This document shows positions 1 to 58,550 of a stretch of DNA of 64,000 nt, in pieces. Numbering within the stretch: the stretch's first letter is position 1; every line of letters begins with the position of its first letter. The translations under genes were made by a program, and so were the position numbers. The stretch is from contig NC_134825.1 of assembly GCF_004210375.1 (NCBI RefSeq), positions 9,300,001 to 9,364,000 of the forward strand, written 5' to 3'. The notes under the pieces are model-generated. The model worked only from the letters and a program-made list of their open reading frames with translations, made no database searches and was not told where the DNA came from. This DNA comes from Tachypleus tridentatus (taxonomy: Eukaryota > Arthropoda > Merostomata > Xiphosura > Limulidae).

Positions 1-770
1 GTTACCTAAACACTTATGATTATACCATGGAATGTTACCTAAACACTTATGATTATACCATGGAATGTTACCTAAACACCTATGATTATACCATGGAATG
101 TTACCTAAACACTTATGATTATACCATGGAATGTTACCTAAACACTTATGATTATGCCATGGAATGTTACCTAAACACTTATGATTATACCATGGAATGT
201 TACCTAAACACTTATGATTATACCATGGAATGTTGCCTAAACACTTATGATTATATCATGAAATACTACCGAAACACTTATGATTATGCCATGGAATGTT
301 ACCTAAACACTTATGATTATACCATGAAATTCTACCTAAACACTTATGATTATACCATGGAATGTTACCTGAACACTTATGATTATACCATGGAATGTAA
401 CCTAAACACTTATGATTATACCATGGAATGTTACCTAAACACTTATGATTATACCATGGAATGTTACCTAAACACTTATGATTATACCATGGAATGTTAC
501 CTGAACACTTATGATTATACCATGGAATGTTACCTAAACACTTATGATTATACCATGAAATACTACCTAAACACTTATGATTATGCCATGGAATGTTACC
601 TAAACACTTATGATTATACCATGAAATACTACCTAAACACTTATGATTATACCATGGAATGTTACCTGAACACTTATGATTATACCATGGAATGTTACCT
701 AAACACTTATGATTATACCATGGAATGTTACCTAAACACTTATGATTATGCCATGGAATGTTACCTGAAA
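1..770. repeat. 33-bp minisatellite array (left edge cut)
   Basis: About 23 head-to-tail copies of a 33-bp unit beginning ATGGAATGTTACCTAAACAC. The array runs off the left edge. Because 33 is divisible by three, an 11-residue repeat is open on the plus strand (27-794), and the minus strand is also open over 256-816. Opposed long reading frames are expected of such an array. The unit variants include Y-to-C, Y-to-N and T-to-A changes as well as silent ones, and I see no start context or splice signals. I treat it as a non-coding satellite. Confidence 0.95.
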
Positions 771-955
771 ATGTACAGTAATCATTGCAATTAAAATTTG
801 ATTTTGAATGAAACAAAATGTGTTACAATAAGACCGAACTGCGCAATTATATCAACTAGTTGAAATTTTGTATATATATACAGATGGTCGTATAGCTGGT
901 CCGATATATATGGAAAAACGTTTTAATCACAAGTCGTGATCTTGTTCATATACAT

Positions 956-8543: not shown

Positions 8544-9466
8544 CTAAAATTTATGGTGTTTTCCTGTCGTCCAAAAAAAGGCGCTGAGAAAGAAATTAGC
8601 CACTTGTTTCCAGCATCATTACACTCCAAATATGGCGAAGTCCACCTACCGTCAGATAAGCCAACTATAATGTCGCTGCCACCACTGACAAGAGGCGTAG
8701 AAGCGACACTAAAGTTTGTGTTGTTTTTCCTTTGGTCAGTGAAGTTTCTTTCAATAGGTTGCCAGAACCATTCACTTCCAACAGAATCTTCATCATAAGA
8801 AACGTTATAAGCGGTTGCTAAGTCCTTGGTTTCAATATATCCATCTTGTCTAAACGCGTAAGGAGTGAACAGTAGTGGTGGTATTTTCCCACGAGGGCGG
8901 AAAACGCCTCTTTGAAAACCGATACCACTAGCATATATGAAAGGATCACTCTCAACATTTACTCTAACCAAGGAGTAATAAAACTCTTCATTATAAATCA
9001 TTTCAGTATCTCCTGAATCCTTTAAAAAAAGGTTCGTCAGGATATTTGCTGTTTTTATAGCAGCAGCTGCTTGTCTTTCAAAACGATCCAAAGACTGATC
9101 AGGTAGGTCGTACTTAAAATGCGCTTTCAAAGACGTCCGCGCACAGTGTAGGGAATCGCTGCGGTTGTGCGTTAATTCGATGTAATTCAAGATAGCCGAA
9201 ACATAGTCTTCTTGTTGGAGAAACTCACGCACGTCATCCAAATACACAAAATCGGCGTCGCGTTTAGATCGCAGCATCTGTGGCTGAAAACTCACATCTG
9301 TTCTGTTTATCAACGGAAAAGTATAGCCAGTGTTTTCAAGAAATAATATTAAGTTTGGGCTTAAATCTGTTGTTGGGCTCAACCAACAAAATACTGGGTT
9401 TTGTTTTAAAAGTAAACATAGCAAAGAAAATATCAAAAATAGAGATCCGTCCACGGATATCATCAT
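8544..9466 (-). CDS. GPR158/GPR179-like (smog-like) orphan class C receptor, Cache-domain exon
   Basis: This exon encodes about 307 residues of the extracellular part of a class C receptor. A signal peptide (residues ~1-28, hydrophobic core LFLIFSLLCLLL) precedes a furin-like R66-S-K-R69. N-glycosylation sequons are at N54, N101, N221, N241, N248 and N251. The C-terminal part has W275-TSPYLEC282, then KWLISFSAPFFG and a final NFR. I recognise this as the end of the Cache domain of GPR158/GPR179, whose human homologue GPR158 senses glycine. C108 and C282 could form a disulfide. The exon ends AATTTTAG before GTAGGA at 8543, a phase-2 donor. The in-frame TAG two codons on is therefore intronic. 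The EGF-like and seven-helix exons are not visible and would lie at lower coordinates. A good acceptor (TTTTACTTCCAG) ends at 9468, one base before the ATG, so a 5' UTR exon probably lies upstream. Confidence 0.8.
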
Positions 9467-12269: not shown

Positions 12270-13250
12270 AATTTAATGTTATCTCTTCTATCACAAGTAT
12301 ATTATACAATTTAATTTTATATGTTGCGAGCTCAGTATATCGTATAGTTTAGTGTTATCTGTTTTGTTTTTAGTATATAGTTTTAGTATATTATATAGAA
12401 ATGGTATAAAACTGATCTTTCTTATTCAGGGGCAAACACATTATACAGTTTAATGTTATCTGCTCCGTTTAGTACATTATTTGGCTCAACGTTATCTGGT
12501 TTGGTTTAGTATATTACACATGTTACTCTTATCTGTTCTGTTTGGTAGATTATATAACTGAATGTTTTCCGTTTTGATTTAGTTTTTCTATAGTTTAATT
12601 TTATTTGTTATGTCTAGTACTATATATAACTCAATGTTAACTGTTTTGATTGAGAATGTTATATATGTAAATATTACCTGTCTGTTTAGTACACTATATA
12701 ACTCAATGTTAACTGTTTTGGTGTAGAATATTACATAGTTCAAAGTTATTTGTTCTGTTTAGTACATTATATAAATCAATGTTATCTGTTTTGGTTTAGT
12801 ATGTTATATATGTTAATATTATCTGTCAGTTTGGTATATTGTACAGCTCAAAGTTATCTGTTCTGTATAGTACACTATATAATTTAATGTTATTTGTTTT
12901 GGTTTAGTATATTATATGGCTCAGTGTTATCTGTTCTGTTTAGTACATTATATAACTCTGTTATCTGTTTTGGTTTAGTATGTTATATAATTTAAAGCTA
13001 TCTCTTCTGTTTAATACATTATAAAACTCAATGATATCTGTTTTGGATTAGTATGTTATATATGTTAATTTTATCTGTTCTGTTTAGCACATTATTTAAC
13101 TCAATCTTATTTATTTTGGTTTGGTATATTATATAGTTTAAAGTTATCTGTTCTGTTTAGTACATTATACAGTGCAATGTTATCTGTGTTGATATAGTGT
13201 GTTATATATTTTAATGTTATCTGTTCTGTTCAGTATACAAGAGTTTAATG
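12270..13250. repeat. Degenerate AT-rich dimeric array, ~36-bp monomers
   Basis: About a kilobase of alternating, diverged monomers. Type A contains 'GTTCTGTTTAGTACATTATA' and type B contains 'GTTTTGGTTTAGTATGTTAT'. Together they form a ~73-bp dimer. Divergence between units is much higher than in the other arrays, so this array looks old. Confidence 0.8.
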
Positions 13251-28460: not shown

Positions 28461-29084
28461 TAATAATAAACTTCAAGACTACCATTTATTTACATACTTT
28501 CTATCTTCTGCTATCCTATACACTTCTATGTTATTACAAAAATGATTTTCCTAAGCTACTATTTGAAGTCAGACCTTTAGTGTAAAAATTATGCAGTATA
28601 CTTGTTTAACTAGCAGTGTTCATGTGCAAGATACAATCAGGAAAATGTATCGAAACTATACGGAAGTAAACTAATAGTTAATGCAATACATATTACAAAA
28701 GAACAAATTTATCATGAGATTCCATTTCTTAAAGTTTATATTTATATAATTAATTTGGATTTTTATAAGATAATGAAAACATTACATAAAAATCAAGCAT
28801 TAGCTGAAATTTGGTTAGGATCTGATGAGTTTTAGACAACTATGGTTTTTGGTTCAGGTTTGAAAACGTTTATACAAATGAGATGTTGGTTTTAGTATGA
28901 AAAATTTTACACATCAAACATTTGGTTGAGATTCGACATTTCTTACACCTGAGATTTTGTTTGAAGTCGGACAACTTTTAGATAACTGAGGAATTTGAGA
29001 GTGTGATATAATTTCTTGATTTTCTGTATATAATCCACACACAAAACTAGTGAATTCATCCAAGTTTTACTTTTCTCTGGTTGA

Positions 29085-29220
29085 GAAAATTTATATGCAA
29101 AACCGGCTCGTTTGGGCTGAGAAAACACTTTTACATAGAAAAGCAAACAACGTTCTCAGCCCAAACGAGCCATTTTTGCATATAAATTTTCTCAACAAGT
29201 GGGTTTCTCGTCATCACTGA
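29085..29220 (+). mobile_element. Short non-autonomous foldback element with 14-bp duplication (copy 2)
   Basis: A 136-bp insertion is flanked by perfect 14-bp direct repeats TTTTCTCTGGTTGA (29071-29084 and 29221-29234). Most of it is an inverted repeat. The arms are 29081-29123 and 29153-29194 (TTGAGAAAATTTATATGCAA and complement, also GGCTCGTTTGGGCTGAGAA). The spacer contains AAGCAAACAACG. It ends with the family terminus AAGTGGGTTTCTCGTCATCA. The hammerhead-like core itself is missing from this copy. Confidence 0.85.
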
Positions 29221-29473
29221 TTTTCTCTGGTTGATCGAACCTTCTTAATTTTAAACTCTCATTTCCGATTATTAAACTGAAATATTTCTGTTATCCATTA
29301 CTCAACTTACCTGTTATTCACCAATAATTACACGCCTAAAAATTTGTTATACCAGGTAAGAAACACGGTTTTCAAAAATGAACCTAAATTTATTACCACC
29401 AATTATGTAGACTATGCCCTGAACAAAGTTAAAAAAACAATATAAAGAACCTTAGAATACATATCAAGGCTGG

Positions 29474-30077: not shown

Positions 30078-33000
30078 TTAAATGATAGTAAAAAGGTTAA
30101 TGGCCGTTAAAAAACTAAAAACTTTATCAAGGTGGACAGTGTTACTGACACCAATAACAGTGTCTAATGTTATGGACAAACCTTGGTACAGAACATGTTC
30201 AAAATAGTGCAGTCATTGAGAGTCGTAACGATGGCAAGAAAGTAAAATGTGGCTTACAGTGATCTGAGTGTTACGCAAACTACACACTGGTGCATCAGTT
30301 CGAGATAAAAGAAAACAATGAGTTAAAAAACTGTGACCAATGCAAAATCTAGTTGGAACAACTTCCTCCTTCTGAACCTTACGGAAGTTAGACAGCCAAA
30401 GTTCAATATACAGTTTGATTTGGAAAAGTTTGTTGTCCCGTTGCTCACTCCAAGTGGACTGCCAGCTGGCATGGAGCCAAGCCTTGAATACAGGACCACA
30501 GTCCATGTACAGAATAAGCACAGTGATGATAGTGCCAGAGCAGATAGATTTAGCTTCCGTGTCTGCAAGCTCGTTCCCGCAAATATCAACGTAGCCAGGT
30601 ATCCAGAAAAACTGGATAGAAGTAGATGTTGATGAGAAATGGGCCAGTCGGTTTTGAATATCAGTGAGAACAGGGTGTGAACCAACGTAAAGCGATTCCA
30701 GGGCCAGTAGAGAACTAAGCAAGTCAGTATAAATAGTGAAGTTGGAGTACTGCTTAGTTTCAATATAATATAGGGCAAGAGATATGGCATACAGTTCAGC
30801 AGTGAACACAGAAGCTGTGGAGGGGATTCTGCACACAATCACCGAACCTCAACAAACCATGGCAGAGCCCACAGAGTCACCTGATTTTGAAACATATGTA
30901 TAAATTAGAATGGAATGATTGTTCTAAAGATGTTCAGTAAATAAATGATGGTACTTCCAATCAGGAGTATCTGCTTTTCTCATATGACTTAAAGAAAGGT
31001 CACATTTGGGGACTGTAATAAGCCAAGGTAGGATGGGCTGACCAGTGGATTCTGCAATGTTATCCAAGGACACACCCAATTCATCCAATTGCACATGGAC
31101 AAGAGGGCTAAAAGGAGCAATGGCAGATCATCTGTTCTGAAAAGGTATGGCCCACCGAGGAAGGAAAACACATCCCCAGGAGGGATTGCTTTGGTAAGGA
31201 ACGAAGTTTCAAAGAATATAGTAAAGACAGTTGCAAACAGCAAAGGTGCAGAGAAGGTTCATGAGATTCTACATATAAGCTTTGAACTGGGAGGTGCAGA
31301 AAGCCCCAGTGCAGAGCCAAAGTCCTTGATGATGAATGAGGTCCAGCATCTTTAAGACCGGGGGTCTGGCAGAGCCATAGACCAGTGATCCATAGTCGAG
31401 TTTCGATCAAATAAGAGTACAATATATCTTTAATACAGAACATCAATCCACTCCCCAAATGGTGGTAGATAGGACACGGAGGATGTTCAGTGCTCTTGTG
31501 TATTTGACCCATAGCTGCTGTAAGTGTGGTATAAAGGTCAGCTTACGGTCAAAGATAAGCCCCAAGAACTTGTTCTCAGGGACCACAGGCAGCAAAACTT
31601 CACCGATATGGAGTTCAGGATCAAAGTGAATACCTCATTGGTGGCAAAAGTGCATGCAAACTGTTTTAGAGAGAGAGAAATTAAAGCTGTTTGCCATGGT
31701 CCACTTCAGTACATGATCGAGGGCAGTTTGTAGTTGCTGTTCAATATATCTCGTGTTCGACGACTGAAATGAGATGTAAAAGTCATTGACAAAGAGCCCA
31801 TTTGCAACAGTAAGAGAGAGTTATTCAGTGATGGCATTTATCTATAGACTGAAAAGTGTGACACTCAAAACACAGCCCTGAGGGACCCCATGTTCCTGTA
31901 GAAAAGAACAGGAAAGTGTCGAACCCACACAAACTTGGAATCTCCTGTCCGTTAAAAACATTTTTAATAAAGATGGGTAAATGGCCACGTAACCCATATA
32001 TATGGAGGTATCGCAAAATGTCATACATCCATGTTGTATCATATGCCTTCTCAATGTTAAAGAATATTGATACAAGATGTTATCGTTTGAGAAAGGCTTC
32101 TCTGATTGATGTTTAAAGTCCAATTAGGTGGTCCTTGGTGGAGTGCTGTCATCAGAACCCACACTGGGTGGGCGAGAAGAGGTTGTTTGATTCTAGGAAC
32201 CAAACAAGACAAACTTTAACCATTCTCTCTAAGGTCTTACAGAAACAGCTCGTCAAAGCAATTGGATTGTAGTTTAAAGGAATCTTGGGATCTTTCCCAG
32301 GCTTAGACAAAGGTAAGATAATAGCCTGGTGCCAGGTATTAGAAAAAAAAAATTATCCTGCCAGATTCGGTTAAAAACAATGAGAAGAATATCAAGAGAA
32401 GCAGGATATAGATGGTGCAGCATGTCATAGTGTACATCATCTGGTCCAATAGATGTACTGCCAGACTGATGAAGGGCCAGTTTCAGTTCCAGTAGTTTAA
32501 AGGGACGATTATAGTCAAAGAAACAGTCAGTTCGAAAGGAAAGAGGTGAACGCTCTGCCCAAGTCTTGAAGGCCATCAAGGTGGAGGAACAAGCAGAAGT
32601 GCGATATACCTGGCAAAAGCTTTCACCTAGAGTATCGGCAATGCTCCGGACATCAGCTACTTCTTGGCCATCAGAGTATGATTGAGAGAGGGGCAGAATT
32701 GTAGTGCCCACTGACCTTTTGAACCTTGTTTCATATGACCTTGTAACTGGTGGTAGAAGATATGCCAGTTGTGAACTTAATCCAAGATTCCTTCTGATTT
32801 TGACTTTGATTTTGATTTTCAATGAGAGCATCAAGGTCTGATTGATCATATGTCTCTCCAGGCAACAAGTAAAGAGAATAAACAGTGATAGTACGACCCA
32901 AAGAAACACGGATGGCTATGGCCTCCAAGGGTGTGTTGAGTGACAAAGACAGGGTGGGCACGTGTTGATCAACCAACAGTGGCACCCCTCCATACATTCA

Positions 33001-33180
33001 TCCATCACACAGCCTGTCATTTCTGTACAGAGAAAACTGCCAAAAGGTGACTGTATCAGCAGGTTTTAGAAATGTTTCTTGTAAAGAAAGACATAAAAGA
33101 TGGTAGGAAGCAATCAGTGTTTTGATATCATCCAGATTAGAACGTAAACCTCAAAAGTTCCATTGTATCAAGGTTGCCAT
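30078..33180 (-). pseudogene. LINE copy A ORF2 (endonuclease-RT-RNase H) remnant
   Basis: Starts MATLIQWN at 33180, the usual start of an EEP endonuclease. A stop soon follows where copy B has an Arg (CGA to TGA). The endonuclease is cut after 'DQSDLDALIE' and resumes at 'KESWIKFTT', so the catalytic core is missing. RT fragments follow in several frames (32274-32909, 31842-32123, 31108-31512). This copy keeps the RT segment between 'NRIWQD' and 'IEKAYDTTW' that copy B has lost. The active-site motif reads FVND (first Asp to Asn). The RNase H part (30213-30842) is the best preserved, with TAELYA, YTD and GNELAD, followed by a Cys-rich C-terminus (CSL..THxLLSCHRY type). Confidence 0.85.
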
Positions 33181-33296
33181 TTTTTACGACGTGTAGGCGA
33201 ATTGGCTGGAGAGCCATCCTGTTTACAACCACGTCTTTTTTCCTTACTGTCCTTATTCGAGGGAGGTCTATCAATCTCCATGGATCCTACCCTGGG

Positions 33297-34260
33297 TCAA
33301 TTGGGAAGGTCTTTGTTGTTGGAAGGGGATTCCAGTGACTGAGGATGCAAACGAATGATTCTTTTGCAACTTGGGGTGGGAGAAAAAGATGTATCTGAAG
33401 AAATGCCTGTATCTGAAACCAAAGGATGTGGATCATGGGGTTTGTTGGAATGTATGGGAGGAACAGAGATGGGTGTAGAAGTTGATTCATCAACTTTTTT
33501 AACCATGGAGGTCCAAAGGCTTTTCATTTGTTTTGAGAACAATTCTCTTGGAGGCACAGAGAGATCTGTCTGCACTCCCACTATAGTGGTGGAATGAAGT
33601 GCAGCAGCATATGTCCGAGATAAAGTGGTAGACAGCAATTTCCGAGCCTCAGAATAACTAATGTTATGAGTCGTTTTCAAATGCTGCACCTCTTTTTCCT
33701 CCAACCATTTAGGGCAAGAACGAAAGTAGGAAGGGTGAGAACCATTGCAATTGACATAATATGAATCAGTTTCACACTCACAGGCATCGTGATCCTTGCC
33801 ACCACAATGAGCACGTCAGCATTCGAGTAGCCGAACTTTTGACACTGGAAACATCTGAGAGGGTTTGGAAAGTACAGCCGTACCTTGCAATTTAGATAAC
33901 CTGCCTTGATGGTGGCAGGTGCACGTGGTGATGTAAATGTCAAAACAAGGACATTTGTAGGCAATGTAACTCCATCTTTGCGAGTGCAGATATGCCTCAC
34001 TGCAGAAACTCCTTCAGTGGAGAAACCAGTGAGAAACTCTGACTCGAGAACGATCTTCAAATCCCTCTCAACAATAACTCCTCGTGATGAATTCAAGATA
34101 GCATGAGGGGTAACCTCAATAGGTACATCCCAATAGCCTTTGAATTCAAGAAGAGTTCAGTGTTGGGATGTGGATGTTTCAACCAATATGTCTCCAGATC
34201 GAAGCTTCTTTACTGACTTTGGAGAGCCAGCAAGTCCCTCCAGTCCTCACCACGTACAGG
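33297..34260 (-). pseudogene. LINE copy A ORF1 (gag-like, zinc knuckle) remnant
   Basis: Frames 33677-34096 and 33297-33704 encode the nucleic-acid-binding ORF1 protein. Motifs include 'RGVIVERDLK', 'TFTSPRAPATIKAGYL' and a CCHC-knuckle region, then a Ser/Thr/Pro-rich tail. The first knuckle reads CFQCQKFGYS: the Cys pair is kept but the His is replaced by Tyr. A frameshift separates the knuckles. The N-terminus is missing through the internal deletion near 34250. Confidence 0.8.
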
Positions 34261-35657: not shown

Positions 35658-36235
35658 ATTGCTTAGAAAAAATAATTCCAAGTTCAAAACTGCTTATTCA
35701 GACAAAAACAGAATTTTCACAATAATGAAAGTCAAGAAAAAGATAGAGAAGACAAGCAAATAAGGAAACACTTTTGACATGGAAAGGATACCACCAAACG
35801 ATAGTTGCAAAACAAACCAGTAAGAGGGTCCTTTCTTTTCATTACAACACTGGGTCAAAAGCATGAGGTTAGGTCAGTCTTATTAAAGGCACCAGAAAAG
35901 CAAAATTGTGATACAGGAAGTAAATGCTTGTAATCATGTCAACTAGAAAGTCTGCAATAACAGCACTCAAGGAAACCTAACCCTGAATCTGCTAAACTAA
36001 TGTACAACAAAGTGAATGTATTTAAATAAAGGCAACTTTCAATATCCAGCATTATCTTCCGACATGAACTGAAAGGTTGCTGTCAAGAACAGTACCAGAA
36101 GCCACAAATGTTTAGATGAAACCAATAAAGCATATTACACTTCATTAACTTGGAAGTAATAAGTCCACCAAACAATGTATAACTCTTATTTATGTAAAAA
36201 TGGCTCATTTGGGTTGAGAAAATATTTTATATAGA

Positions 36236-36280
36236 GGAGCAAACAATGTTTCGACCTTCTTCAGTCATCGTCAGGTTCAC
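36236..36280 (-). other. Hammerhead-like ribozyme motif (left arm)
   Basis: On the minus strand: GTGAAC arm, CTGACGA, T, stem GACT-GAAGAA-GGTC, GAAACATT, GTTTGC arm. GTGAAC and GTTTGC can pair over six positions with G-U pairs. Confidence 0.45.
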
Positions 36281-36459
36281 AAAGAAAGAAAGAGGTAACT
36301 GACCACATGTTTGAAAGGGGTTGTGTAACTGAGTGTCGGAATGTAGAGGGCGTGCTTATATAATTATATATTCAAACATTTAAGCATGCCCTCTACATTC
36401 CAACACAACCCCTTTCAAACATGTGGTCAGCTTCCGGTCAGTTACCTCTTTCTTTCTTT

Positions 36460-36498
36460 GTGAACATGACGATGACCAAAGATCGAAACGTTGTTCGC
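36460..36498 (+). other. Hammerhead-like ribozyme motif (right arm, mutated)
   Basis: On the plus strand: GTGAAC, ATGACGA (first core C changed to A), T, GACC-AAA-GATC with one mismatch, GAAACGTT, GTTCGC. The outer arms GTGAAC/GTTCGC pair fully, with one G-U. Confidence 0.4.
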
Positions 36499-38767
36499 TC
36501 CTCTATGTAAAATATTTTCTCAACACAAACAAACCGTTTTAACATATATATTTTCTTTTACCTACAAGTGGGTTTTCTCAACATCACTAATGTATAACTC
36601 TGTTGAAGAAACAGAAGTACAAAAAAGATAACCATGGAGCTTTCAATAACAAAAACTACACAGCAGAAAAATATAAAGAAAAACATATGGCATCCATGAC
36701 ACCAACATCAACAATACAACACTCAAAATTGTAACTTCATAAAATGTAAGGAGCCCAAGAACACTGCAAAAGGTATGTAATTTAGTCTAACATAGAAACT
36801 TGGTAGATGCATACGAGATACTTCCATGAAGGAATATTCATATATTATAGGAAAAGAACAAAAATCTAAGGCTGAGCAGATCCAAGAGGGTCAATCAACT
36901 AGGAGGATAAAAGTTTAAGCTCTTGTATAAACTAACAAAGTTTATCCATTTAAAGTCTAGCAAAACTATGACTACTGACCAAATGTCAGAGAACTTATGA
37001 CAGAACAGAATGGCTAATGTCTTTTATTTAGACAATGACTAAACTGCAGTAAGCCACCTGGAGGGGTTACTTGTTTTAATCACTGTACGGTAGTGTATTT
37101 AATGTCAGTCAGCAGATAATTAAAGGACATAACATAAGGGACCCTTAATGTTGCTACTTGTACTGTCACGAAATCAATAAAAGGTGCACAAAAAAGAATT
37201 GTACTCCATAGGCTATGATACAGCATGATACATGAGCTTCAAAAGCAAGAAATAAGCATACTGTTATGTTAATATTGGTTTTATTTACTCTTGAAACAGA
37301 ACACTTTCAAGGACCCTGTGCAAGTACATCTAGCATTATAGTTTTCATATTTCATTTGCACAACATGTGAAACATCCTAAATGAATATCAAATGAGTTCC
37401 TGATAAGGCTTTATCTGATATTTTCTCTACCAAAAACAATATACAGTAAAACTAAAAAGTTGAAAACTATGATATAAAATTTTAAAAAAAGTTTATCCAG
37501 AATACCTGTGTATTGTAGCAGATAAGTAAATTTACAGATTTATATTCTAGCATCAACTCTCATGATTTTATGATACTCTCAGTACCCAAGAAGAGACTAA
37601 ATCAAGTTATTTCACAACTTCAAATCACATTATTTCTAGAAGTGAGTGATATAACTTGATCAATTCATTTTGTTTCATTTTTATTGTCTAACAAGTTTCT
37701 AATTTTTATATTTTAGCTATTTTTGTCAAAAGATTCATAATAATAAAAACTATACATAAAAAAACAATAGATTTAGCATTTAAGTTTAAACAGACCTTTT
37801 TGCCTTCAATGACCCTATTTTAGTTCACTATGTTTTAACTATGTGCAATGTATACATTTTTACATAAGCAAATTAGTACACAAAGATATATCAGGTATTA
37901 TAGCAGAATGTAACAAGGTTATAACTTATCTGATTTTCTAACTTAGCTAGAAATAGGTTTAACAATTACATTACTGCTCAGAGAAATACTCTTCAATACC
38001 ATGATTTTTTTTGGAACTGTAGCCACCAAATCTAAACAAGTGAACAAAAGGGGTGTGTTTATTTACACTTGCTCTTTTCTTTGGTTCAAACACATCCATC
38101 AAATAAGGATATTTTGTTTAGATACACTGGTTCAAAGTTATGATAGGTCAGTGGTGCTTAAAGGTAGATTGTGCAAAGTCACTTACATCCCAGAATGTAA
38201 GAGGTTCATATTTTACACTCAGACCTGCAAGTATCTAATTCATGTTGTCTAATTAACTGGATACTCTGAAGGCCACATAAGGGATAACAAAAAAATAATA
38301 AATAAAACAGAGAGATACAATTGGCAAATCACATTACAGAGAAGTGAAAACTGAGAAACAATTTAAGTATTTACCTTTTAAATTAAAACTTGGGTAACAT
38401 AAAACTGAATTATAAACTACATTTTAATGCTAAGTTTACTGACATACACTTTTAACAAATTTTAATTAAAGATTAATATAACTGTAAACAAAAGTTTGTG
38501 GAATGTGCACTTTAATCTTCCCATGCATAATAAATTAAGGAAAAGAACTTATGAACCATCATAAAGATTGGTTTAATTACTATAAGAATTTGTTTACTTA
38601 TACAGTTTACATGAGAATTAAAAACCAATATTCTTGACATTAGATCTAACTGGTTCCTTTGTTTTGTGTTTCACGTAACTGTGAACATTTCAAATGTTTT
38701 CTTGATAATTTTTGCCTACTTAATCTTCACCATTTATTACCTTGTATGAAGAACTTAGTACAATTTT

Positions 38768-38934
38768 TGTGATAACAAGACACCCACTTGAAGTAATGTA
38801 TCTCACAACAGCCCGTATGTGTAAACGATTTTACTAAAAAAGCAGAAAACAATGTTTCAACCTTCTTATGCCAAAACACCGTTCTCTGCTTTATTAGTAA
38901 AAGTGTTAATATCCATACCAGCTGTCCTGATACA
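38768..38934 (-). mobile_element. 167-bp non-autonomous element, 13-bp duplication (copy 4)
   Basis: Perfect 13-bp direct repeats TTAGTACAATTTT at 38755-38767 and 38935-38947. On the minus strand it starts with 'GGTATGGATATTAACACTTT', has an internal foldback (AGCAGAGAAC / GAAAACAATG region), and ends TTCAAGTGGGTGTCTTGTTATCA. The hammerhead-like core is partly deleted. Confidence 0.85.
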
Positions 38935-39208
38935 TTAGTACAATTTTGATTTTCTTATTTCATTTCAGCCTTTCAATTAAATTTATTAATATGTAGACAA
39001 GTGAATTAATTTGAATTTTTATGTGATACATTGGTATGAAACTAACATTTCACTCTAAGCTTTCTTCTTATCCAATTTTTCAATATATTTTTGTGTACCT
39101 GCTAACTTATTTTTCCACTGTAATGTCTTTTCCATTTATACATTGTTGCATGACATTCCATCATTTTACTGTTTTACTTTGTTCCTTTCTATAACAACAA
39201 AACACAGC

Positions 39209-43250: not shown

Positions 43251-43389
43251 TATAGCATATATATCTTCACAAAATTTGATATACTTTCAGTAAAGATTAC
43301 AAGCATTTTGTATAATGAAAATAGAATTTCTTTCTTTACTAGTCTGAGTGCAAAGTGATTTCATGTTATGATTAAAAAAAACTATTATA

Positions 43390-43610
43390 TATGTAAAAAT
43401 GGCTGGTTTGAGTTGAGAAAATTTTTTATGTAGACCAGTGAACAACATTTCCACCTTCTTCGGTCATCGTCAGGTTTACAAAGAAAGAAAGAGGTAACTG
43501 ACCGATAGCTGATCACATTTCAAGGAGGTTGTGTAACTAATTGTAGGAATGTAGAGGGCGTGCTTAGATGTTTGAATATATTTATAAATATAGGTATAAA
43601 GATGTTCCAG
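43390..43610 (-). mobile_element. Half-palindrome copy of the hammerhead-like element family (copy 5)
   Basis: Matches the left arm of 36187-36588, from 'TATGTAAAAATGGCTGGTTT' to 'GTAGAGGGCGTGCTTAGATG', without the mirror arm. The core on the minus strand (43438-43480) reads GTAAAC, CTGACGA, T, GACC-GAAGAA-GGTG, GAAATGTT. No duplication was found. It may be a 3'-truncated or rearranged copy. Confidence 0.7.
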
Positions 43611-49801: not shown

Positions 49802-52800
49802 TTAAATGAGATTAAAAAGATTAATGGCCATTAAAAAATTAAAAACATTATCAAGGTGGACAGAGTCACCATCACCAATAACTCTGTCCAATGTTACAGA
49901 CTGACCCTGGGAAAAAATATGTTTAAAATATTGCCGTCGTTGATAATTGTAACGATGGCAAGAAAGTAAAATGTGGCTGATAGTGATTTGAGTGTTACAC
50001 AAACTACACATTGGTGCATCAGTTCCAGATAAAAGAAAATGATGAGTTAAAAAACTGTGACCAATGCGTAGGCTAGTGAGAACAACTTCCTCCTTCCGAA
50101 CTTTACAGAAGCTAGATGGCCAAAGTCCAATTTTGGGTTTGATTTGAAAAAGTTTGTTGTCGCGTTGCTCACTCCAAGTGGACTGCCAGCTGGCACGGAG
50201 GGAGCCGAGCCTTGAAGACAACACCATTGTCCATCTACGGAACAGGCATAGGAGTGATGGTGCTGAAGCAGACATATTTAGCTGCCATGTCTCCAAGCTT
50301 GTTCCCGCGAATACCAACATGGCCTGGTATCCAGAAAAACTGGATTGAAGTAGCTGCTAATGAGAAATGGGCCAGTCAGTTTCGAATATCAGCGAGAATA
50401 GGATGTGAGCTAACGTGTAGCGATTCCAAGGCAAGTATAGAACTAAGCGAATCAGTATAAATAGTGCAGTTGGAGTACTGCTCAGCTGCAATATGATCCA
50501 GGGCAAGAGATATGGCATACAGTTCAGCAATGAACACAGAAGCTGTAGAAGGGATTCTGTGCGCAACTACTAACCCATAGCAAACCATAGCAGAGCCCAC
50601 TGAATTACCTGATTTGGAACCATCTGTATAAATGGGAACTGAATGATTGTTTGAAAGATATTCATTGAATAAAAGACGGTACTTCCAACCTGGAGTATCT
50701 GCCTTTTTTAGGTGACTGAAAGAAAGGTCACATTTGGGGGCTGTAATAAGCCATGGTGGAATGGGCCAACCTGTGGAATCTGCAATGTTATCCAAGGACA
50801 GACCCAATTCATCCAACTGTGCCCGGATGCAAAGGCCAAACGGAGCAATGACAGATCGTCTGTTCTGAAAATGTACTGCCCACCGAGGAAGGAAAACACA
50901 TTTCCAAGTGGGATGCTTTGGTAAGGAATGAAGTTTCGAAGTATATTGTAAAGATAGTTGCAAACGGCGAAGGTGTAGAGAAGGTTCATGAGATTCAATG
51001 TATATACTTTGAACTGGAGAGGTACGGAAAGCCCCAGTGCAGAGTCGAAGTCCTTGGTGATGAATGGGGTCCAGCATCTTTAAGGCCGGGGGTCTGGCAG
51101 AGCCATAGACCATTGATCCATAATCGAGTATCGATCTAATAAGAGCACGATATACCTTTAACATTGAACAGCGATCTGCCCCCCAACTGGTAGAAGAGAG
51201 AACACGGAGGATGTTCAGTGCTCTTGTGCATTTGACCCGAAGCTGCTTTAAGTGTGGTATAAAGGTCAGTTTACGATCAAAAATAAGCCCCAAGAACTTG
51301 GTCTCCGGGACCACTGGCAGCAAAACTTCACCGATATGAAGTTCAGGATCAGGGTGAATACCCTGTCGACGGCAAAAGTGCATGCATACAGTTTTGGAGA
51401 AAGAGAAATTAAAGCCGTTCGCCAGAGTCCACTTCCGTACACAATTGAGGGTGGTTTGTAGTTGCCGCTCAATATATCTCATGTTTGACGACTGACATGA
51501 GATGTGAAAGCCGTCGACATACAGCCCATTCGCAACAGTGAGAGGGAGTTGTTCAGTGATGGCATTTATCTTTATACTGAAGAGTGTAACACTCAATACA
51601 CAGCCTTGAGGGACTCCAAGTTCCTGTACAAAAGAACGGGAAAGTGTCGAACCCACACGAACTTGGAATCTCCTGTCCATTAAAAATTTTTTAATAAACA
51701 TGGGTAGATGGCCACGTAACCCATATGTATGGAGGTCTCGCAAAACGCCATACCTCCATGTTGTGTCGTAAGCCTTCTCTATGTCAAAGAACATTGATAC
51801 AAGATGTTGGCAGTTGAGAAAAGCTTCTCTGATAGATGTTACAAGACGAATTGGGTGGTCTGTGGTGGATCCTGCCAGATCTGGTTGAAAACAATCAGAA
51901 GGACATCAAGAGAAGCAGGAGATAGATGGTGCAGCATGTCATAATGAATATCATCAGGTCCAACAGATGTACTGGCAGACCGATGAAGGGCCATTTTTTA
52001 GTTCCACCAGGGTAAAGGGACAATTATAGTCAAAGAAACAGTCAGTTCGAAAGGAAAGAGGTGATCGCTCTGGCCAAGTCTTGATGGCCAGGAAGGTGGA
52101 GGAACAAGCAGAAGTGCTAGATACCCGGCAAAAGCTTTCACCTAGAGTGTTAGCGATGTTCCTAACATCAGTCACCTCCTGACCATCAGAGAGTAAGATC
52201 GAGAGGGGGACAGAATTGTAGTGCCCATTAACCTTTCGAATCCTGTCCCATATGATCTTGGAACTAGTGGTAGAAGATATGCTGGTTGTGAACTTAATCC
52301 AAGATTCCTTCTGGCTTTGACGTCTTACCCACCTAGCATGTGCACGGGCCCGTTGGAAAGCAACCCGGTTTGACAGTGTGGGATATCTACGAAAAGTATC
52401 CCAGGCCTGCTTTTGTGCCTTCCGTGCTAAGTGGCAAGCAGGATTTCACCACGGACGAGGATATCGTGGAAAACTTGTCGAGATTTTAGGAATACACTGA
52501 GCAGCTGCATGTGTAATACAGTCAGTTACCACTGCTACACAGTCGTCTATTGATGGCTGATTTACGATGGCAGGATCAAGTTCTGCGAGAGCAGTGAAAG
52601 TGGACCAGTCTGCCTGATCCAGCTTCCACCGGGGTACGCGGGTAAGGTGGCATCAACCACGGCCAGTCTCTCTCAAAAGGATCAGAAAATGATCACTGCC
52701 TAGTGGATTACTGTCAACCCTCCATGAAAAAATGGGAGAATAATGAAGGGGAGCAAACTGAGAGATCAATAGCGGTAAAGAACTGACTAGGTGCATGAAA

Positions 52801-53313
52801 GTAAGCGGAAGAACCAGTATTGAAAAGAGAAAGATTGTGATCAGAGAGCATCCGCTCTACAGATCGGCCCCTCCCATCAATAATAGCACTTCCCCAGAGG
52901 GGATAATGTCCATTAACATCCCTTAGGATTAGAAATGGAGATGGCAACTGTTCAATGAGAGCATCAAGATCTGATTGATCATATGTCTCTCCAGGGGACA
53001 GATACAGAGAACAAACAGTGATGGTATGACCCAAGGAAACACGGATGGCTACAGCCTCCAAGGGTGTGTTGAGTGACAAAGACAGGGTGGGCACGTGTTG
53101 ATCAACCAACAGTGCCACCCCTCCATGTACTCAACCATCACACAACCTGTCATTTCTGTACAGAGAAAACTGCCGAATGGAGACAGTATCAGCAGTTTTG
53201 AGAAATGTTTCTTGTAAAGAAAGACAAACAGGATGGTAGGAAGCAATCAGCGTTTTGATATCATCCAGATTAGAACGTAAACCTCGACAGTTCCATTGTA
53301 TCAAGGTGGCCAT
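49802..53313 (-). pseudogene. LINE copy B ORF2 (endonuclease-RT-RNase H)
   Basis: Starts MATLIQWNCRGLRSNLDDIK, an EEP endonuclease N-terminus. A stop near 53131 is followed by another frame with YLSPG, 'DVNGHYPLWGS' and 'AIDLSVCSP', conserved endonuclease motifs. The frame 51954-52175 leads to the deleted RT start. The 472-codon frame 50376-51794 holds DIEKAYDTTW, GVPQGCVLS (residues ~60-68), YVDG (92-95, normally YVDD), KFLGL, and RNase H residues TDGS (D391), AELYA (E424) and YTD (D448). The last frame (49802-50320) finishes RNase H with GNKLGD, where the usual Glu is Lys, and the Cys-rich tail. Not functional. Confidence 0.9.
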
Positions 53314-53429
53314 TTTTAAGAACGGATAGGTGAAGTGGCTGGAGAACCCTTCGGTTTACGACCACGTCTTTTTTCTTTACTGTCTTTAGTCGGAGGAGGT
53401 CTATCAACCTCTATGGATCCTGCTCTGGG

Positions 53430-54583
53430 TCAGGTGGGCAGGTTTTTGTTATTGGAAGGAGAATCCAGTGACTGAGAACGCGAACGAATAATTGTTTTGT
53501 CTCTTGTGGTGGGATAAAAAGATGTATCTGAAGAAATGCCTGTATTTGAAACTGAAGGACGTGGATCTTGAGGTTTGTTGGAAGGTATGGGAGGAACAGA
53601 GATGGGAGTGGAAGTCGATTCATCAACCTTTTTAACCACGTTGGTCAAAAGGCTTTTCATTTGTTTTGAAAAGGATTCTCTTGGAGGCACAGAGAGATCT
53701 GTCTGCACTCCCGCTGTAGTTGTGGAATGAAGTGCAGCAGCATATGTCCGAGATGGAGTTGTGGACAGCAATTTCCGAGCCTCAGGATAACTAATGTTAT
53801 GTGTTGTTTTCAAACGCTGCACCTCCTCTTTTTCCTCCAACCATTTTGGGCAAGAATGAAAGTAAGAGGGGTGAGAAACATTGCAGTTTACGCAATGTGG
53901 GTTCATGTCACAGTCATAGGCATCGTGGTCCTTGCCTCCACAACGAGCACATGTCAGGGAACCACGACAAGATGTCTTTGAGTGGCCGAATCTCTGACAT
54001 TGAAAAGATCGAAGAGGGTTTGGTATGTATGGCCGAACCCTGCAAATGAGATAACCTGCCTTGATGGTGGCAGGTGCACGTGGTGAAGTAAATGTTAAAA
54101 CGAGGGTATTTGTTGGCAGTGTAACTCCATCTTTGCAAGTGGAGATGCGCCTCACTGCAGAAACTCCTTGAGTGAGAGACCAGCGAGAATCTCTGACTCG
54201 GGAACGTTCTTCAAATCCCTTTCAACAATAACTCCTCGTGAAGAATTCAAGGTAGCATGGGGTGTAACTTCAATAGGTATATCCCCAATTGCCTTTGAAT
54301 TCAAGAGGAGTTCACTGTGTTGGGATGTGGATGTTTCAACCAATATGTCACCAGATCAAAGTTTCTTTACTCACTTTGGAGAGCCAGTAAGTCCCTCTAG
54401 TCCCTTTTGAATAAAAAAAGGGGACATTTGCCCTAAAGGTTTTTCCGAAAGAGAATGTAATATAAGAAAATGAGGTACGTGTGTTACTGATGTTGAAGAT
54501 TGCTGTTCTGAGTATTCAAGACATGGTCACTTACCCATTGACTGTTTTTTTACAATTTTATTTAAATTTTTTGGAGGATCCAT
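53430..54583 (-). pseudogene. LINE copy B ORF1 (gag-like, three zinc knuckles)
   Basis: ORF1 begins MDPPKNLNKIVKK at 54583 and is soon interrupted. Frame 54152-54343 has 'RGVIVERDLKNV'. Frame 53430-54155 has 'TFTSPRAPATIKAGYL', then three knuckles. The first is SFQCQRFGHSKTSC, with the first Cys changed to Ser. The second is CARCGGKDHDAYDC (intact CX2CX4HX4C). The third is CVNCNVSHPSYFHSC. A Ser/Thr/Pro-rich tail follows. It lies ~120 bp upstream of ORF2, the usual two-ORF layout. Product role in living relatives: RNA binding and particle formation. Confidence 0.85.
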
Positions 54584-57649: not shown

Positions 57650-58550
57650 GGATGAGGAATTTTGATATGATGGGAATAATTATAAAATTTTGAATGTTAA
57701 TTATCTTAACAGAATTAGAGCCTGTTTAATAAAAATAGAGTATAAAAAAGAAGGGGCAAAATAGTTTTATATGTAAAAGTGAGTTACAGCTTGTTGAAGT
57801 TGAGCATATAAAAAATAATGGTAAGGAGATTGAGCCAAATTGGATTTCTATTAACAGATACAAAGGAAAATTGATTTTATTGGGAATTTCTTACAGACCA
57901 CCAAATGTATCTCAGAACGACTGGTATGGGTATTAACACTTTTACTGATCAGAAGAGAACAACGCTTCGAACTTCCTAGGTCATCTTCTTAACCTGAGAT
58001 ATATTTTTATTTTAAGTGGGTGTCTCGTTATCAAGAAACCACCAAATGATACTGATCAAATTAGTGTGAAATTTTACGGTGATATTTATAGTTCAAGTGC
58101 TGGTGAAGTCATAATTATGGGCGATTTTAATTTCAGGCACATAATACTGGAAAATTCTCCAGTCTAACGACTAAAATGAAAAGTGTTTTTTGAAAACTGT
58201 TTAAAATGGCTTTCTTTATCAGTTGGTCAAGTAGCGTTTTAAAAACAATGTTATTTTTAGATTTTTGTTATCTTCAAATATATATATATGCTCGAGAGGG
58301 TTGAAATTGAGGAACCTCTTGGTGCACGATCATAAAAGGAATAGATAGTGTTGACATATTATTCTTTTACATAATTAACTGTTGGACTAATGGACATTTA
58401 TATAAAGTTTGGCAGGGTAGGAGTCATTTTCAGCTAAGACAGTTTCACTTTTTCTAACAGTATGGTTGGCTTTTGGAATGGGTTGCTTTTGAATGTTATA
58501 AATCCAATACATTTAAGTGAATCTAAGAGAAAACTTTATATGTATATGAA
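57650..58550 (+). pseudogene. CR1-like LINE endonuclease relic, interrupted by a small element
   Basis: The plus strand gives 'NWISINRYKGKLILLGISYR' and PPN before the insertion at 57908. After it come 'NDTDQISVKFYGDIYSSSAG' and EVIIMGDFNFRHI (58040-58145). YRPPN and GDFNxxHI are hallmark segments of CR1-group EEP endonucleases. The downstream part is badly decayed. Confidence 0.75.
57908..58037 (-). mobile_element. 130-bp non-autonomous element nested in LINE relic, 11-bp duplication (copy 6)
   Basis: Perfect 11-bp direct repeats ACCACCAAATG at 57897-57907 and 58038-58048 show insertion into the LINE coding sequence. It contains GGTATGGGTATTAACACTTT, a decayed hammerhead-like core (57957-58003, minus strand: AAGAAGATGACC...GTTCGAAGCG), and the terminus TTAAGTGGGTGTCTCGTTATCA. 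Orientation is given by the core. Confidence 0.88.

Follow-up and report, generated by a model that had tools for sequence, protein, structure and literature searches.

The 402-bp palindrome at positions 36187-36588 of the window, the 64,000-nt stretch of DNA analysed here (C1:9300001-9364000), is an old, heavily 5'-truncated insertion of a common Penelope-like element (PLE) of ~2.8 kb, not a separate element. The insertion itself is an ordinary decayed PLE and presumably inert; what is new is a strict rule for the ends of such insertions. Among the distinct head-to-head insertions flanked by a target-site duplication (TSD) that were examined, 61 of 61 have one end with a tail of ~34 nt and one end with no tail. 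This rule of one tail, one no-tail end and one TSD, drawn from a genome where hammerhead-core sites number in the tens of thousands, is a constraint for models of PLE integration. It is not stated in the accessible parts of the open-access PLE and hammerhead literature examined, and may be in print elsewhere.

The insertion lies between perfect 13-bp duplications (AATGTATAACTCT, 36174-36186 and 36589-36601), as the initial annotation had described, and its arms are inverted copies of one ~195-bp unit, with arm blocks of 72, 47, 33 and 29 nt that are 85-94% complementary. The no-tail arm (36187-36353, minus strand, inner boundary approximate) is the reverse complement of the PLE 3' end, and its outer end is located at the presumed proximal reverse transcriptase (RT) start site. 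The tail arm (36354-36550, plus strand, inner boundary approximate) contains the PLE 3' end in sense orientation. At this end of the insertion only, the unit is followed by a tail, generally ~34-38 nt and here 38 nt (36551-36588, plus strand), which spans the interval from one presumed RT start site to the other. Both arms stop less than ~200 nt from their own start. A search of the 2.17-Gb assembly with the 402-bp element returned 96 matches among those listed, the non-self ones at 76-90% identity. They include full palindromes, so that the structure is not a chance one, as well as many single arms. The assembly also has 19 matches to the coagulogen family, located on two contigs, against none in 14 control genomes; this points to a horseshoe crab, coagulogen not being known from other animals.

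The family call made at the outset, a PLE with a minimal type I hammerhead, is borne out by sister insertions, in which both a reverse transcriptase domain and a motif resembling GIY-YIG are present. The RVT_1 domain was detected above the Pfam cut-off (E 2.9e-12) in the open frame of one copy (L049), the one protein scanned. Motifs such as NIIYKIQCDNCHDFYIGETSR, read by eye as GIY-YIG-like, are present in several copies; in the one protein scanned, Pfam gave no GIY-YIG match up to E 10, and a comparison with solved structures yielded no match at E 0.01. Tandem copies are spaced at 2.79-2.84 kb steps, and pseudo-LTRs in tandem and in head-to-head arrangement, with the tail, are found in the family. 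The RT domain, the motif, the termini and the hammerhead together place the family among PLEs of the Penelope/Poseidon type. Of the 42 script-scored pairs with a clear TSD, 24 have a TSD of 13 bp and 33 one of 13-14 bp. The 24 TSDs of 13 bp are 72% A+T, a value that describes the TSDs themselves.

The rule for the ends was scored in several sets of insertions. All 42 head-to-head pairs with a clear TSD, from 52 scored by script, are tail/no-tail (26 young and 16 old), with tail offsets of +31 to +34 and no-tail offsets of -2 to +6; the tail is on the right in 24 and on the left in 18. In a forward test with a pattern that requires neither ribozyme nor tail, 26 head-to-head neighbours were listed, 16 of them new, and all 16 of these close pairs (15 distinct) are tail/no-tail, 15 by script (no-tail offsets 0 to +7) and L099 by eye. 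Four further insertions were read as tail/no-tail by eye: L035, which the script had wrongly scored tail/tail, the palindrome at 29.1 kb of the window and its counterparts at 38.8 and 57.9 kb, which belong to a second PLE family (F2). With the 42 and the 15 distinct forward-test pairs these make up the 61.

The pairs were drawn from head-to-head neighbours less than 5 kb apart among the first 100 places listed, 12 from the hammerhead-core list and 25 from a second list, which contains 0 convergent and 7 same-strand neighbours in the same range. The patterns behind both lists exclude the tail, while palindromes added from the full search and the ten-kb loci were picked from matches that include it. 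The 16 older pairs were found by whole-element similarity, tail included, and could not have shown a pair without any tail; the 26 younger pairs and the 16 forward-test pairs were chosen independently of it. Sampling covered the first places on contig C1 and the best matches, not the whole genome. Insertion ends were partly set by eye (L035, L099 and the palindromes at 29.1, 38.8 and 57.9 kb). Dropped before the count were L006 (the L004 locus), L031/L032 (a duplicate of L029/L030), L092 (a duplicate of L091) and the alternative pairings L019 and L021x.

Several head-to-head arrangements stand outside the 61. L055, L005, L007, L073/L074 and L028 are tail/no-tail but have a weak TSD or none by script. 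L081/L082, for which two minus-strand arms lie 364 bp from each other and the outer one was used, is likewise tail/no-tail and has no TSD. At the F2 locus L085-L087 there is no tail on the left, a tail on the right and no TSD seen. L024b has no TSD and one unclear end, L039 and L040 each join two subfamilies with no TSD, and eight further head-to-head neighbours among the places listed for the T-containing hammerhead pattern described below are left out. L067 is tail/tail; PLE sequence extends beyond it in both directions, which places it inside a tandem array.

The window contains three further TSD-flanked PLE palindromes, at 29.1, 38.8 and 57.9 kb, with ends set by eye. The palindrome at 29085-29220 (plus strand; 136 bp) belongs to the same family as the 402-bp element, in a young subfamily. 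It has no tail on the left, a tail on the right and a 14-bp TSD (TTTTCTCTGGTTGA, 29071-29084 and 29221-29234), and its arms are too short for a complete hammerhead. Both others are F2 copies. One (38770-38934, minus strand; 38755-38948 with its TSDs) has its tail on the left and no tail on the right, with the TSD TTAGTACAATTTTG and an extra T in the left TSD copy; the other (57908-58037, plus strand) has no tail on the left and a tail on the right, with the TSD ACCACCAAATG at 57897-57907 and 58038-58048. A single tailless arm of the same family as the 402-bp element lies at 43388-43608, within the stretch read. A stretch of the F1 tail, CAAGTGGGTTTCTCGTCATCA, recurs in the F2 copy L085.

In each of the 61 head-to-head insertions both ends are 3' ends of the PLE sense strand, facing outward, with a single TSD around the whole. 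The two ends seem to be the counterparts of the neighbouring pair of internal RT start sites in PAc (Poseidon_Ac), from Anolis carolinensis (PMC11167929, Frangieh et al.), a correspondence of position and spacing, not of sequence. PAc cuts and extends both target strands in vitro, prefers AT-rich targets and starts reverse transcription internally at two adjacent sites that bound a tail of 30-40 nt, and in these respects the insertions described here resemble it. In the published text of that study, unlike here, the two start sites are not linked as a pair in single insertions. Its assay found no start-site difference between strands and reads one strand at a time, so that pairing per molecule lies outside the assay; later steps of PLE integration are described there as awaiting validation.

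We consider it probable that the 402-bp element was made by two-ended target-primed reverse transcription. AT-rich DNA would be cut in a staggered manner by the PLE endonuclease. Of the two target strands, one would use its 3' end to prime copying at the distal start site, giving the tail end, and the other would prime in the same way at the proximal site, giving the no-tail end. The two cDNAs would halt at different points, and their head-to-head joining would often take place where they match over a short stretch. A single source of RNA may usually have served for both, perhaps even one RNA molecule occupied by two RT complexes; such an arrangement would account for the finding that no start site appears to be used twice in an insertion. 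The hammerhead is located directly upstream of the start sites, and most of the arms read run through its cut site, which indicates templates uncut at that position. Two-ended priming is not the sole route, since 9 of 20 ten-kb loci hold one-ended copies without a clear TSD (L018 with a possible TSD).

A more general proposal is that PLE integration is obligately asymmetric, in that each internal start site on the RNA would be used exactly once per two-ended insertion, one per target strand, most simply by two RT complexes on one RNA. In our view this proposal is as apt to fail as to hold. If true, obligate asymmetry would set PLEs apart from LINEs and R2 in their mode of target-primed reverse transcription, and it would account for two PLE traits at once, namely the optional tail and the repeats in head-to-head order.

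Several features of the arms bear on the source of the RNA. Variants common to both arms and absent from other loci were found at 5 of 21 compared loci, those of L054 at the extreme arm end. In the 34 palindromes with inner ends read, arm lengths correlate (Spearman 0.80, n=34), mainly through the short palindromes; in the 13 longer ones rho is 0.30 and not significant. It is possible that the correlation reflects a local folding step. Internal deletions are ignored in this set, and the old copies are left out of it, as are L035, L067, L092, L093, L097 and L100. The two arms of L050 differ at three sites that vary elsewhere, which fits two templates. Partner arms are not consistently each other's closest relatives: in a test on young copies, the old ones being uninformative, the partner is strictly closest for 7/20, 2/16 and 5/8 arms in three regions, with many ties. 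The shared variants and the length correlation thus fit RNA of one source, while L050 and the distance test are not clearly supportive.

The same measurements bear on self-priming, in which the head-to-head repeat would result from a single cDNA, or an antisense template, that folds back and is extended on its own sequence. Such an origin was proposed for Penelope of Adineta vaga from palindromes at inverted junctions, where self-priming on an antisense template was taken to explain the inverted repeats (PMC3846280). It would account for arms that, once aligned, overlap by at least 1 nt at the junction in 24 of the 34 palindromes, and for the many near-equal arms (median length difference 57 nt, against 351 nt expected by shuffling). 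A copied arm should, however, share the outer end of its template, and the ends differ by ~34 nt at fixed points in 61/61 insertions. Were the no-tail arm copied from the tail arm, the tail arm would always be the longer one; it is longer in only 11 of 34, against 22 for the no-tail arm and one tie, and a tailless arm cannot template a tail. The surplus of palindromes with the longer arm on the no-tail side does not reach significance by itself (P 0.08). We regard self-priming as unlikely.

In other respects the Adineta vaga elements are close to those described here, with head-to-head inverted pseudo-LTRs, a TSD, an optional tail on the 3' end of one pseudo-LTR and 5' truncation (PMC3846280). 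In that account TSDs are 8-10 bp or absent, copy number is low and self-priming on antisense RNA is favoured, whereas here TSDs are mostly 13-14 bp, sites number in the tens of thousands and the one-tail rule is without exception among the insertions examined.

The initial annotation also described hammerhead-like motifs. In the family these have the form GTGAAC-CTGACGA-T-GACC-GAAGAA-GGTC-GAAACGTT-GTTCGC. The core CTGACGA, said to be present in each arm, is found in the left arm only. The motif of this no-tail arm (36239-36280, minus strand) reads GTGAAC CTGACGA T GACT-GAAGAA-GGTC GAAACATT GTTTGC, with an intact core and a mismatched stem III (ACAU). That of the right, tail arm (36460-36498, plus strand, read directly) is GTGAAC ATGACGA T GACC-AAA-GATC GAAACGTT GTTCGC, in which core C3 is replaced by A and stem II contains a C.A mismatch; it is presumed inactive. 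Cutting of the transcript by a ribozyme, as had been suggested, is unlikely for the 402-bp copy, because the right arm no longer has C3 and the left arm has ACAU in stem III in place of the ACGU palindrome.

The one-base T insertion after CTGANGA, noted earlier as a departure from the canonical core, was confirmed as near-universal in the family, and is a standing feature of these elements. The T-containing pattern CTGANGATG...GAAACGTTG occurs at 9,292 + 9,249 = 18,541 places in the genome (controls 1 + 1), and a somewhat narrower pattern without the T at 2 + 4 = 6 (controls 1 + 0). The extra base is not unique to the family, as the minimal hammerhead of PAc RNA carries the same extra U after CUGANGA (PMC11167929). 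A start codon was considered as the reason for the extra T and fits PAc, where an AUG over the hammerhead opens the ORF, which starts at stem II. In the present family the corresponding frame ends with a stop after 13 codons, which leaves the explanation unsupported here. Ribozyme cleavage in PAc is reported to need the protein (PMC11167929).

Allowing up to 3 mismatches, the 31-nt hammerhead core is found at 13,016 + 13,102 = 26,118 genome sites, with 0 for the reversed control. The core and all ten pairs are present in 60 of 105 gap-free family arms, many of them from loci picked by the core pattern. A lack of stem covariation among copies had been named in advance as evidence against the motif. 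Within the family there is indeed no two-sided change in 105 related arms, an outcome that does not count against the motif, since the copies are recent and decaying. In a single comparison between the family form and the PAc hammerhead, 7 pairs form in both, of which 4 differ on both sides, 1 differs on one side and 2 are identical; the outer three stem I pairs form neither in PAc nor in a 15.8-kb F2 copy. The covariance models, another check proposed, gave no hammerhead: Rfam has no match at the gathering threshold across the window, nor at E<=10 for 36100-36700, where all 24 matches score below their own gathering scores and are mostly microRNA hairpins. At the family level the predicted core with stems I and II conforms to the minimal type I hammerhead class, with one extra U after the core. 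Like other minimal hammerheads (PMC6155905, PMC7761336), the motif lacks helix III and may cleave as a dimer; it differs from them in that Rfam finds no hammerhead at the element and both motifs of the window copy are decayed.

These observations leave little room for the proposal of the initial annotation that the palindrome is a non-autonomous, MITE- or retrozyme-like derivative, copied as a unit with a ribozyme that processes its transcript. Full-length palindromes of similar size do exist elsewhere in the genome, and many copies contain the hammerhead core in both arms. The inner junctions, however, differ between the distinct insertions read, with reference positions that range from near 2757 down to near 1, and the TSDs likewise vary from copy to copy, so that each palindrome appears to have arisen independently, by truncated insertion of a PLE. 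A common junction was seen in two sets (L085-L087; L091/L092), whose members also share flanks or TSD, which identifies them as segmental duplicates. The equal spacing of L085-L087 had suggested a mobile F2 palindrome, which was rejected on the finding that they are one duplicated locus. Some palindromes, such as L089, contain no core at all. None of 68 inner insertion ends lies within one base of the ribozyme cut site, so the insertion ends examined show no recognizable trace of ribozyme cutting. Many short arms stop slightly upstream of the cut site; we claim no peak there, since pairs of the second list are detectable only if their arms reach it. In the plant and animal retrozymes a hammerhead is likewise contained within a mobile repeat (PMC6155905, PMC7761336), but the ends of the present insertions bear no sign of ribozyme-cut templates and the parent PLE has its own RT. 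Copying as a palindromic unit is thus very improbable.

Least credible of all are two separate side-by-side insertions or a later rearrangement of a tandem array: L039 and L040 join different subfamilies with no TSD by eye, L067 sits within a tandem array, and single convergent neighbours less than 5 kb apart occur in the hammerhead-core list and in the ribozyme- and tail-free list, but one TSD surrounds the whole palindrome in 61 distinct pairs, and head-to-head exceed convergent neighbours by 12:1, 25:0 and 26:1 in three overlapping lists.

In the arm ends of L067, L016 and L010, the tail can pair with the flank of the proximal start site through AACCCA/UGGGUU (or AGCCCA). This pairing would place the proximal site in a loop, and is predicted in 3 of 4 copies for the end region and in 1 of 4 with a 150-nt stretch. 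Elsewhere in the window, the open frame at 256-822 (minus strand) encodes a short repeat (GNIPWYNHKCL-like) and is a tandem repeat rather than a clear gene. Two degraded LINE-like copies on the minus strand (30213-34156 and 49802-54221) contain RT-like and zinc-knuckle-like stretches, as read by eye.
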